Below are positions 47,706-54,744 of a stretch of 64,000 nt of DNA, piece by piece. Positions within the stretch are counted from its first letter, which is position 1, and each line of letters starts with the position of its first letter. The notes beneath the pieces were generated by a model that made no database searches, had not been told where the DNA came from, and saw only the letters and a list, made by a program, of their open reading frames with translations. Origin of the DNA: Rhyacophila brunnea (taxonomy: Eukaryota > Arthropoda > Insecta > Trichoptera > Rhyacophilidae); assembly GCA_022495005.1 (NCBI GenBank), contig JAGYXB010000658.1, positions 62,001 through 126,000 on the forward strand, given 5' to 3'. The translations under genes were made by a program, and so were the position numbers.

Positions 47706-49099
47706 CTTTTCTCTAGGTCCATTTACCTGGAACACCCAATGTTAAAACTCCAACTTTTTTCGAGTGCATTCGTTTGTGCATCGTTAGTGCACGTTTGTGC
47801 ACGCGTTTTTTTTGTTTGTGCACGCACATTAAAGGGGTTATTCGCATTTCAATTTGGGTGACCCAGCTAAATGCTGGATACTTGTGTCACTAAACATGTG
47901 TTTTTCCTTAAATTTAAATTGTAAACACTTGTGCGTTGGTAGTGTACGTTAGTGCATGATTTTGTTTTGCTTTTTCACCTATATTCAGCGCGCTATTTAA
48001 TTTTAAAGTTTGTATGCAAAATCTGACTGGGTGGGTTTAAAAAAATATTTTGTAGTTAAATCTCTTGTTGCATAGCTAGTGCGCAATTATTTATACTTTT
48101 TTATTTTTTTTCTCATATAGTGCGTGAGTTATTCTATATGAAATATTTAATTAACGTTAAGTAGAACCACCCAACAAACTTTTTAAACTTTTTATTAGGT
48201 CATCAATTTGTCTATTATTGGCTTACGTTTGTGCACGTGCTTTTTTTGTTTTATCGATTATATCGTGAGAGATATTATTTTTTAAAATTTAGTGACTTGA
48301 TACTTGAACCATTAAAATTGCCTTAAAATTTTTTTGTTTAGTGCATCCAATTAGGTTAATTTATGTAAACTTTAAGCACGATTTCAAAAAATTTTATCTT
48401 TTATATTAAACTAGTAATTAGATTTTGAGTGGCCGTCAAGTTTTAAAACCAAACATTTATTTTCCACATTTTTTAAATGCACACCTTTGAGTAATTTAAT
48501 TACATGATTTTTCATGAAATTTTTATTGTCTTTCCATTTAAATTACGCGAAAAATTCGCATTTTTCCATTTTCACTAAGTACCCCGTCAAAATTTCCTGA
48601 ACAAAAACGACCGCATCCGTTTGGAACATCCAGTCAAAAGAGTCTCCTCAAAATATCCAAAACGGTGTAAGGCTCACTAAATATGTCGGTTTATAATAGA
48701 CTATTTCAAAATTGACAATTTGATTTCACAAAAGTGTCAAAATTACAAAATCATTCAACTTTCTTAACATTTATCTATTTATTTATGATTTTGAATGGAT
48801 CAATGTCAGTTTCATAAGGAAAAATGCAGTAAATTATATAATTATACTTACCTACTGTTTTTTAAAATGATCTGTAATAAAAATAAATACCGTTAAGTTA
48901 TTAGAATACAATTAGGTATGCATACTTTTGAAAAATGCAATAGGTATGTTTTTATGCAACGATATTTTCTTCAAAAGATAATATTGGAATGACATTTATA
49001 TTTTTTTTATATAAAGGGGTTAACTTGCAGGCACTTAACTCTTTCTAATAATATTTGCATCTTCTTTTTCTCTGTTTCTCCAGGTGGTGCAACGAATGT

Positions 49100-50135
49100 T
49101 TGTAGTTCTGGTAGGTGTTATGTTAGGAGAGAAGTGTTAGTCACTTCATATTATGCTATTCAGAATCGATATCAAATAAAGTTTTGTAGGTTCTTTAAAA
49201 AGTTATTGCCTCTGACGGCTTCGACAATTGTTTCACGCAAATGGTTTTCTTTTGAATGTGTGTGTTTATTAGTTCTAAAACAACGTACCTACTTACATAT
49301 CTGTTTACATTTATATTTAAACTCATCACGATTATGAGTTTTTAAATGACATATTTGTTTAGGTTATACTTTCAAAATAAAATTAATCACACGCAAATGG
49401 TTTTTCTCCTGTTTCGTTTTATGAGCGTTAAGATAATTTTATGCCGAGCCTCCGTATAAGTAGTCAATTTATTTAAAAGGTTATTCACCATTTTGTATCT
49501 TTACATATGTTTGAAGATTACTACGTGGCGAGCATCCAAATGAACATACATTGCATTTATAAGATTTTTCACGAGTATGTTCTATATAATATTATGTACA
49601 TATTCATTTCATGTCTTTTAAGACAACAAAGTCGTACGCATTTATATGAATATACATCGAATTTTAAAGGTTTGTCACCAGAATTTGTCATTTGTTAGTT
49701 TTTAAGATGACTTAGTTGCGAGCATCTATATGAACAAACATTGCATTTATAAGGTTTTTCACCATCCACCAAAAATGGCCGCGCGGCTTAAGCGTTGGCA
49801 TATTGCGTCAAGTGTCCCTAGTTCCAATCCTCGGTCCGGCAAGTGCGCATATTATTCGCGAAAATCTATATGAACATACATTGCATTTTTAGATTTTTCA
49901 TCGGAATGTGTCATTTTGTGTCTTTTAAAACTTTAATTTGCGAGCATCTATATGAACATAAATCGCATTCGTTAGTGTGTTCAGTATTGTCATTCCACAT
50001 GTTTTAAGACAACTAGGTTTTTTAAATGACATATTTGATTACATTTCAAAGTCATCACTCATTACACGCAACTCGTTTTTCTCCTGAATGTGTAAGTTTA
50101 TGAGTTCTTAAACAACGTATTCGATACAATGCTGC
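49100..50135 (-). pseudogene. Zinc-finger array remnants, left arm
   Basis: On the minus strand one can read repeated decayed C2H2 pieces: RTHKLTHSGEK-like near 50110, [11 protein letters not shown] strings coded by TGTTCATATAGATGCTCGCA (several places), and KPLKFDVYSYKC-like near 49640. Stops and frameshifts interrupt every unit. The same pieces occur in the right arm (52750-53710) on the plus strand. The finger style (C-x-x-C-[DS]-Y-[KR]-C) matches genes A and B. Confidence 0.75.
49772..49850 (+). repeat. SINE-1 head in the left arm
   Basis: TGGCCGCGCGGCTTAAGCGT with a B-box-like CTAGTTCCAATCC, only the tRNA-related part. Its mirror copy is at 53020-53092. Confidence 0.75.
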
Positions 50136-50474
50136 CAAAAGTTGGTAAGTTGATAGTTTAGGTATTTTGAGTTTACCACGGATAAGATGTCTATACTTAT
50201 ATACGTTTGCCATATAAAAATATCAAGTTCATCCGATTTTTAAAACATAGTTTCTTTAGCAGCTATTCATTATGTTAAAAATACGTGACTCTTGATCGTT
50301 GAATTTACCAACATCAGAAGACTGTAAAGATGTTTACAGTTTTAATTTAGATAAGAATCTAATTAATGAAACGCAGTGGTAAAATCTTTGTAATACTATT
50401 ATCTAACATTTTTATTATTTTTCAATAGTTGAGCTAAAATAATAAAGGACTTCCGAAATAAGTTTGTAAATATT

Positions 50475-50711
50475 ATGGTAAAATGGCATAGAAATTACAT
50501 TATTTTCAACAGAAGGTATATGGAAGAATTATCAGAAACATATTCAAATAACATAAACTTATTCAATGAAAGAACTTATGAACTTACACATTCAGGAGAA
50601 AAACCATTTGCGTGTGATGAATGTGATTTCCAATATAATCAAATATGTAATTTAAACATACCTAGTGAGCTTAAAACATATGAAATGGCAATACTGATAA
50701 AAACTTTATAA
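50475..50711 (+). CDS. 78-codon open frame with one C2H2 half-finger, left arm
   Basis: The frame starts MVKWHRNYIIFNRRYM, continues SETYSNN.NLFNERTYE and then enters THSGEKPFACDECDFQYNQ before leaving finger sequence. The mirror frame in the right arm (52378-52142) is also 78 codons and differs at about ten residues. It contains a linker and the cysteine half of a finger, without the histidine half. Expression and function are unknown; it may be a chance-open remnant of the captured gene. Confidence 0.35.
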   Translation: MVKWHRNYIIFNRRYMEELSETYSNNINLFNERTYELTHSGEKPFACDECDFQYNQICNLNIPSELKTYEMAILIKTL

Positions 50712-52378: not shown

Positions 52379-52749
52379 AATATTTACAAACTTATTTCGG
52401 AAGTCCTATATTATTTTAGCTTAACTATTGAAAAATAATAAAACTGTTAGGTTATAGTATTACAAAGATTTTACCACTGCGTTTCATTAGTTAGATTCTT
52501 ATCTAAATTAAAACTGTAAACATCTTTACAGTCTTCTGATGTTGGTAAATTCAACGATCAAGAGTCACGTTTTTTTAACATAATGAATAGCTGCTAAAGA
52601 AACTATGTTTTAAAAATCGGATGAACTTGATATTTTTATAATATGGCAAACGTATATAAGTATAGACATCTTATCCGTGGTAAACTCAAAATACCTAAAC
52701 TATCAACTTACCAATTTTTGGCAGCATCGTATCGAATACGTTGTTTAAG

Positions 52750-53710
52750 AACTCATAAACTTACACGTTCAGGAGAAAAACCAGTTGCGTGTAATGTTTG
52801 ATGACTTTGAAATGTTATCAAATATGTCATTTAAAAAACCTAGTAGTCTTAAAACATGTGGAATGACAATACTGGTATACACACTAACGAATGCGATTTA
52901 TGTTCATATAGATGCTCGCAAATTAAAGTTTTAAAAGACACAAAATGACACATTCCGATGAAAAATCTAACAAATGCAATGTATGTTCATATAGATTTTC
53001 GCGAATAATATGCGTACTTGCCAGACCGAGGATTAGAACTAGGGACCCTTGACGCAATATGCCAACGCTTAAGCCGCGCGGCCATTTTTGGTGGATGGTG
53101 AAAAACCTTATAAATGCAATGTATGTTCATATAGATGCTCGCAACTTAGTCATCTTAAAAACTAACAAATGACAAATTCTGGTGACAAACCTTTAAAATT
53201 CGATGTATATTCATATAAATGCGTACGACTTTGTTGTCTAAGAAGACATGAAATTAATATGTACATATTATATAGAACATACTCGTGAAAAATCTTATAA
53301 ATGCAATGTATGTTCATTTGGATGCTCGCGACGGAGTAATCTTCAAACATATGTAAAGATACAAAATGGTGAATAACCTTTTAAATAAATTGACTACTTA
53401 TACGGAGGCTCGGCACAAAATTATCTTAACGCTCATAAAACGAAACAGGAGAAAAACCATTTGCGTGTGATGAATTTTATTTTGAAAGTAGTACCTAAAC
53501 AAATATGTCATTTAAAAACTCATACTCGTGATGAGTTTAAATATAAATGTAAACAGATATGTTAGTAGGTACGTTGTTTAAGAACTAGTAAACACACACA
53601 TTCAAAAGAAAACCATTTGCGTGAAACAAATGTCGAAGCCGTCAGAGGCAATAATTTTTTAAAGAACCTACAAAACTTTATTTGATATCGATTCTGAATA
53701 GCATAATATG
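52750..53710 (+). pseudogene. Zinc-finger array remnants, right arm
   Basis: Plus-strand mirror of 49100-50135. Near 53098 the reading is [20 protein letters not shown] followed by a stop, then a further decayed unit SGDKPLKFDVYSYKC and LCCLRRHE. It is the best-preserved finger in the element, but the histidine half is broken. Confidence 0.75.
53020..53092 (-). repeat. SINE-1 head in the right arm
   Basis: Complement of the sequence at 49772-49850, at the mirror position. Confidence 0.75.
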
Positions 53711-54744
53711 AAGTGACTAACACTTCTCTCCTAACATAACACCTACCAGAATTACAAGCATACGTTGCACCACCTGGAGAAACAGAGAAAAAGAAGATGC
53801 AAATATTATTAGGAAGAGTAAGTGCCTGCAAGTTAACCCCTTTATATAAAAAAAAATATAAATGTCATTCCAATATTATCTTTTGAAGAAAATATCGTTG
53901 CATAAAAACATATTGCATTTTTCAAAAGTATGCATCCCTAATTGTATTCTAATAACTTAACGGTATTTATTTTTAATACCTACAGATCATTTTAAAAAAC
54001 AGTAGGTAAGTATAATTATATAATTTACTGCATTTTTCCTTATGGAACTGACATTGATCCATTCAAAATCATAAATAAATAGATAAATGTTAATAAAGTT
54101 GAATGATTTTGTAATTTCGACACTTTTGTGTAAATCAAATTGTCAATTTTGAGGTAGTCTAGTATAAGCCGACATATTTAGTGAGCCTTACACCGTTTTG
54201 GCTATTTTGCTGAGACTCTTTTGACTGGATGTTCCAAACGGATGCGGTTGTTTTTGTTCGGGACATTTTGACGGGTTACTAAGTGAAAATGGAAAAATGC
54301 GAATTTTTCGCGTAATTTAAATGAAAAAGCAATAAAAACTTCATAAAAAATCATGTAATTAAATTACTCAAAGGTGTATAATTAAAAAATGTGGAAAAAA
54401 ATGTTTGGTTTTAAAACTTGGCGTCCGCTCAAAATCAAATTACTAGTTTAACATAAGAGGTAAAAATTTAAAAAATCGTGTTAAAAGATAACATAAATAT
54501 ACCTAATTAGATGCATTTAACAAAAAAAAATTAAAGCTAATTTATTGGTTCAAGTATCAAGTCATTAGAGACCAAACGTTTAGCTGGAACACCCAATTTG
54601 AAATTGGAATTTTTCTGTTATTATATGTGCACAAACGAAAAAAAATCGTGCACAAACGTGCACTAACGATGCACAAACAAATGCACCCAAAAAATGTTGG
54701 AGTTTTAACATTGGGTGATCCAGGTAAATGGACCTCTTTTCTCT

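Follow-up and report, generated by a model that had tools for sequence, protein, structure and literature searches.

The window analysed here, a 64,000-nucleotide stretch of the Rhyacophila brunnea genome (Trichoptera; bases 62001-126000 of contig C1738), contains a palindromic element of about 7 kb at positions 47715-54735. Our searches of the window and of the 1.087 Gb assembly revealed that this element is one copy of a multicopy transposon family. Very probably it is a non-autonomous fold-back copy of a family that captured host gene DNA, C2H2 zinc-finger sequence in the copy described here and part of CTR9 in another branch, and amplified it. The evidence comes from the ends, the target duplications, paralogous empty sites, lesions common to dispersed copies and the occurrence of two cargoes between the same ends.

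The 13-bp sequence AGGTCCATTTACC forms both ends of the element (47715-47727 on the plus strand and 54723-54735 on the minus strand; window search with up to two mismatches) and does not recur in the window even if two mismatches are allowed. Directly outside lies a perfect 9-bp duplication, CTTTTCTCT (47706-47714 and 54736-54744), which is found nowhere else within the window; the chance identity of two random 9-mers from the window has p = 2.6e-5. The inverted arms are about 3.3 kb long and 94.6% identical over 2,885 aligned sites. In the outer arm 47715-47870 pairs with 54735-54580, and in the main arm 48290-51026 pairs with 54567-51835 at 93.9%, beyond which a weaker match continues to about 51110/51782. 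A stretch of 419 bp (47871-48289) is confined to the left arm and has no counterpart in the right one. Hence, the matching inverted ends, the 9-bp repeat directly outside them and the inverted homology of 3-4 kb per arm described in the initial annotation, which had been made from the sequence alone, were all recovered. Arm homology also stops at the element ends, as that annotation expected of a mobile element; outside there are only scraps, the best flank-to-flank BLAST match being 18 bp long (E 0.003). The features are listed below.

47706-47714: left 9-bp target duplication CTTTTCTCT
47715-47871, plus strand: left terminal block with end AGGTCCATTTACC, TTTGTGCAC repeats and inner inverted copy of the end
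47872-48289: left-arm stretch without counterpart in the right arm
48290-51110, plus strand: left arm
49479-49971, minus strand: left-arm array of broken C2H2 finger units, with four profile hits
49775-49856, plus strand: SINE-like insert inside the finger array, left arm
50608-51651, plus strand: central finger units (five profile hits)
51111-51781: middle between the arms
51782-54567, minus strand: right arm
51865-52246, minus strand: finger units of the inner right arm (three weak profile hits)
52888-53378, plus strand: right-arm array of broken C2H2 finger units, with four profile hits, repeating the stops and frameshifts of the left arm
53004-53085, minus strand: right-arm copy of the SINE-like insert
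54579-54735, minus strand: right terminal block
54736-54744: right 9-bp target duplication CTTTTCTCT

Both terminal blocks carry subterminal TTTGTGCAC repeats, which the window has nowhere but within the element, together with an internal copy of the end in inverted orientation; in a letter-shuffle test of the repeats and the inner inverted end, 1 and 0 of 1,000 shuffles scored as high. Compared with the 22 other copies (44 ends), the right block is 91-100% identical to every end but the right one of L020 (73%). The left block is only about 85% identical to the right block and to the ends of other copies, so that the left end of the window copy has diverged from every other end compared. Identity between the arms is uneven as well, with 97-98% across 48727-50499 versus 84-93% elsewhere (chi-square p 4e-15). 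The insert in the finger array is presumably a SINE, to judge from its look, and similar stretches are located in the window at 37080-37149 and 58107-58187.

Exact copies of the 13-bp end are present 538 times in the genome (280 on the plus and 258 on the minus strand), compared with about 30 expected by a plain arithmetic estimate. A reversed-pattern control gave nearly equal numbers (271 and 252 matches); since the reversed 13-mer lies within the end sequence AGGTCCATTTACCTGGA, we do not regard it as a null. Pairing was examined for the first 100 of the 538 ends. Neighbouring ends less than 25 kb apart were arranged as +/- in 23 cases, ++ in 8, -+ in 4 and -- in 4. Leaving out the +/- pair on C156 and adding the window copy resulted in 23 end-to-end copies of 1.8-21.2 kb, 14 of which are flanked by perfect 9-bp duplications, all different from each other. 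The ends and duplications that the initial annotation suggested seeking at other copies are therefore present. Twenty of the first 100 listed ends are located on C272 (1.03 Mb; L020-L024, L033 and L036), where L022 and L024 lie about 178 kb from one another as an inverted duplication with reverse-complementary flanks.

If the flanks of the window element are joined with a single copy of the duplication, they align across the junction at 68-72% in L022, L024 and L031, indicating that the element inserted into a copy of another repeat which is uninterrupted elsewhere. Because L022 and L024 are inverted duplicates they count once, leaving two independent empty sites. The target at the L022 and L024 site, CTTTCCT-TA, is not identical to the 9-mer of the window. 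An empty site of the kind that the initial annotation expected in other strains was thus observed in paralogous repeats. Together, the 538 ends, the differing 9-bp duplications and the paralogous empty sites identify the family as a transposon. The arms vary in length from copy to copy, with 2.6 kb of 6.3 kb in L021 and 3.5 kb of 7.7 kb in L023; L028 and L029 are palindromic throughout, and L020 and L030 are among the copies with short arms only. Over all copies the inverted ends range from about 0.15 to 3.5 kb. Long variable arms and target duplications at separate insertions, as found here, are the hallmarks of fold-back elements.

The first cargo was traced with a finger profile built from 26 fingers of the three zinc-finger open reading frames (ORFs) of the window. 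It matched finger units mirrored in both arms of the window element, and no intact C2H2 finger was found anywhere in it. Among the 23 copies, 14 had at least five profile hits, one had a single weak hit and eight had none. From the genome, 37 finger-arm pieces of at least 480 bp were kept, representing 35 places (two pieces repeat places already sampled), and none of them contains an intact finger. The frameshift CSQIxxL(K/N)DTK* occurs in 29 of the 37 pieces and SHLKN*QMTN in 31, while two read SHLKNLQMTN. In the branch of L029 and L032, 12-14% apart, the sequence is LKNKKMTN or LKNKQMTN; the stop is absent and the histidines are already lost. The two arms of the window copy have lesions as well as the SINE-like insert in common. 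Since the same lesions recur across loci, the finger DNA was multiplied in broken form.

A 621-bp arm query yielded at least 42 near-full-length matches of 97-100% in the genome (40 scored of 1,442 first-look candidates), several of which form inverted pairs about 3.5 kb apart. In the eight copies with both arms, the closest relative of an arm was its own partner for only 3 of 16 arms, and both arms of the window copy were closest to another locus rather than to each other. Mean identity was 97.3% within copies versus 94.6% between copies. As most arms have a relative in another copy that is at least as near as the partner arm, the arms seem to be older than the dispersal. Arm-to-arm gene conversion in the window copy, considered in view of the uneven identity, is not needed given that 3 of 16 figure.

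A search with a 23-residue finger of the element, in which 150 of 6,731 candidates were scored, found it at 95-100% in six loci with long open frames (345-476 residues), located on C1293, C1069, C295, C356, C527 and C282. One of these, an ORF on C1293 that was read in part, has eight intact fingers with TGEKP linkers. The element matches this gene with E 2e-47 and up to 83% identity over 129 bp, and the two have 10 exact 21-mers in common per strand. In contrast, the best match to the zinc-finger genes of the window reaches only E 2.7e-9, and no 21-mer of the element is within one mismatch of any of the three. These three genes share no exact 21-mer with C1293 and up to 6 with one mismatch. 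The initial annotation correctly saw decayed fingers in both arms but likened them to the window genes, to which they are less close than to C1293. Its proposal of a gene-capturing fold-back born inside the zinc-finger cluster stands as far as a mobile fold-back with C2H2 DNA is concerned; the birthplace does not, because the dispersed copies with shared lesions, the likeness to an intact source-like gene on C1293 and the absence of near 21-mers give it no support. Origin from the window genes was accordingly rejected, and the source of the fingers appears to be a different zinc-finger subfamily on other contigs.

The second cargo is derived from CTR9, which encodes a subunit of the Paf1 complex. 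Six long copies were covered by tblastn; five of them (C34, C268, C289, C88 and C60; 16.0-21.2 kb) have the same ends, contain CTR9 pieces and have no finger match, and C73 was negative. C34 matches, in order, residues 56-91, 88-128, about 142-218, 357-388 and 700-781 of CTR9 chains in the PDB; for 142-218 the score was obtained with the ORF of C88, which resembles its C34 counterpart at 97%. In C34, the one copy read for this purpose, an exon end runs into GTAAGA and the next exon is preceded by poly-T/TTGCAG. This intron-like stretch suggests that CTR9 was likely captured as genomic DNA and not as spliced message. Long blocks are common to C34, C268 and C289 at 97-99%; roughly half of the C34 sequence recurs in C88, in blocks with 83-98% identity, and C60 matches C289 in blocks of 85-95%. 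C34 and C289 have exact duplications that differ from each other. A 73-residue CTR9 piece gave 95 matches from 97 candidates scored; at least 43 of them extend over 72 or more residues, with 83-100% identity. On contigs with listed ends, a correctly oriented end lies within 21 kb of 15 of 17 CTR9 loci. An even distribution of ends would predict about 1.0%, a rough figure because ends cluster, as on C272. Related ORFs on C73, C92 and C88 (L039, L050-L053), e.g. QTDNKTVVAYINNEGGTKS, resemble reverse transcriptase/RNase H of a nested retroelement, which we take to be DIRS-like.

The following course of events would account for these data. An ancestor would have acquired host C2H2 finger DNA by DNA-level copying, for example by template switching in repair or replication, a step that has been proposed for the uptake of host DNA by Pack-TIRs (PMC8277862). 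The fingers presumably were broken already at uptake or broke soon after, and gained the SINE-like insert. Doubling of the finger DNA into inverted arms probably preceded dispersal, after which the palindrome would have spread to many sites, each with its own 9-bp duplication, mobilized by cut and paste through a trans-acting transposase, most likely a Mutator-like one. We infer this order from the dispersal, the shared lesions and the duplications. The branch of 16-21 kb has the same ends, holds part of CTR9 instead and has likewise multiplied.

Several observations weigh against this explanation. The duplication is absent in 9 of the 23 copies; two of these nine are the inverted duplicates L022 and L024, and another, C268, has it with two mismatches. 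No transposase was linked to AGGTCCATTTACC ends: of the 53 MULE-domain matches, 7 are on contigs covered by the list of ends, and none of these 7 has a listed end closer than 30 kb. The finger DNA is just 67-83% alike with C1293, the sole intact gene read, and the actual parent gene may have diverged or been lost. The CTR9 parent candidates C1652 and C1664 are known from their matches alone.

Judging by the length of the duplication and the long ends, the family is probably Mutator-like. Duplications of 8-11 bp are described for the superfamily of Mutator-like elements (MULEs; PMC6446971), and the 9-bp duplication of this family, which has long ends of about 0.15-3.5 kb, is within that range. 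The mover might instead be a transposase other than Mutator, Rehavkus for instance or another group with 8-9-bp duplications, an alternative that we consider possible but clearly the less probable one. It would fit the lack of a transposase tied to the ends, and Rehavkus has duplications of 9 bp and ends of 26-400 bp, its hallmarks being a PHD-finger transposase and a minisatellite before the 3'-end (PMC6446971). On the other side, a search aimed at MULE domains gave the 53 matches in this genome, and the published accounts place fold-backs with 8-10-bp duplications in Mutator, namely Tetris (PMC4079207) and Tm1 (PMC3169594). Ten of the element's ORFs were tested for transposase remnants and resulted in nothing but broken finger matches and weak ones taken as chance.

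It appears unlikely that the finger array is an accessory DNA-binding gene of the transposon itself, dead in the sampled copies, rather than captured DNA. Fingers are present in 14 of 23 copies and occur in two branches that differ by 12-14%, and a C2H2 finger ORF is present in some MULEs such as Spectre (PMC6446971). However, not one finger is intact in the 37 pieces and eight of the 23 copies are fingerless. Six other loci have intact arrays of the same type within long ORFs (assessed by the ORFs alone, surroundings aside; one read), from which a host origin of the fingers is derived, and CTR9, a plain host gene, lies between the same ends.

Capture on a mobile fold-back could have further consequences. 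The 10 exact 21-mers shared with C1293 make it possible in principle that small RNAs from the element act on C1293-type genes. In its most far-reaching form, which we rate as improbable, the family would be a serial gene-amplifying fold-back that repeatedly takes up multi-kb host genes, introns included, and raises them to tens to hundreds of dispersed copies, palindromic or flanked by the ends, with a finger hairpin RNA repressing the source genes. Zinc-finger arrays have a general role against transposons. If the finger genes in question counter transposons, the transposon would use sequence captured from its regulators to silence them.

Very improbable is a hairpin-RNA locus that is kept by the host to silence zinc-finger genes and whose transposon origin is incidental. 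Such loci reportedly suppress selfish genes in Drosophila (PMC10317233), and the palindrome and its 21-mers identical to an intact zinc-finger gene would suit this role, but the copies are many, the sequence data give no sign of one being kept, and the window's own genes lack a 21-mer within one mismatch. A segmental inverted duplication inside a zinc-finger cluster, without any element, would explain finger DNA in both arms and zinc-finger genes in the window, but is practically excluded by the exact end duplication, the absence of homology outside, the dispersed copies with differing duplications and the paralogous empty sites.

Further observations were made in the element and its surroundings. 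The peptide LPELQ(A/T)(Y/F)VAPPGETEKKKMQILL at 53740-53883 (start LPELQAYVAPPGETEKKK) is mirrored at about 49010-49117, is kept by both arms and is accompanied by splice-like signals. Considered as a possible further captured piece, it was unmatched in PDB, Pfam and a protein collection so restricted in length that a long protein would escape it. An RNA family search of the element gave nothing at E 1 or better. Longer end patterns had no matches in viral, prokaryote and phage collections; shorter ones hit 8 and 2 viral contigs, three of them with a 24-bp match of 95.8% to the end and nothing more, and were taken as chance. A second palindrome at 6072-7474 (1,403 bp, matching its reverse complement at 94.5%, with arms of about 686 bp) has TTAA beside GGGGGGAC at each end and ends unlike those of the 7-kb element. 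Positions 14624-15097 (minus strand) resemble the helix-turn-helix of Mos1-type transposases weakly (E 5e-4), and 23898-24554 (minus strand) contains a reverse-transcriptase fragment (E 6e-12). An inverted pair at 15678-16016 and 32325-32675 (91% over 353 bp) lies to the outer sides of the zinc-finger ORFs 17131-18498 and 30802-31809. Named relatives of a zinc-finger ORF of the window include the moths Cydia and Plutella as well as crustaceans and vertebrates. A similar VSSHYCR stretch in the ORFs at 8054-8401 (plus strand) and in L033 had no Pfam match in either, and the window contains a short TTAGG repeat.

It is mainly from plants that the capture of genes by cut-and-paste transposons is known. 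In the literature on animal Pack-TIRs and Pack-MULEs, fold-backs and hairpin RNA, as far as its accessible text goes and with subscription journals and Repbase outside the scope, no comparable family was found. Tetris of Drosophila virilis likewise is a non-autonomous fold-back with long composite ends, subterminal repeats, 8-10-bp duplications and no transposase found; its arms do not exceed 1.7 kb, and the account at hand reports no host gene (PMC4079207). Tm1 of root-knot nematodes is a fold-back with 9-bp duplications, composite ends and short as well as longer members, but there a Phantom-type transposase copy was found (PMC3169594), whereas none is linked here. The MULEs described from 222 arthropod species are complete and transposase-coding, up to 10 kb long with ends of 13-1,193 bp, and according to the authors the long ones may hold captured host sequence (PMC13359780); the copies presented here reach 21 kb with arms of 3.5 kb and no transposase seen.

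With host gene DNA between its ends, CTR9 in five long copies and fingers in 14 of 23, the family by analogy acts in the manner of a Pack-TIR built on a fold-back. Pack-TIRs, among them Drosophila Ssk-FB4, also have host DNA inside a cut-and-paste transposon, some of them multiplied and with distinct duplications, and FB4 likewise is a fold-back (PMC8277862). The one animal survey found describes few multicopy gene captures with few copies each: four cases in 100 genomes, with three and five copies mentioned and four copies of Ssk-FB4, and captured pieces whose median length is 224 bp, lengths being cut off above 5,000 bp (PMC8277862). In our family the fingers lie in palindromic arms and the CTR9 cargo spans about 5 kb of a 20-kb element. 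Animal gene capture by transposons may thereby become directly studyable, and the multiplied zinc-finger hairpins offer a natural test of whether they act on their gene family. Unlike the Pack-TIRs of that survey, this family carries two unrelated cargoes, each at about 40 places or more, which makes breakpoints, event order and ages comparable across copies.

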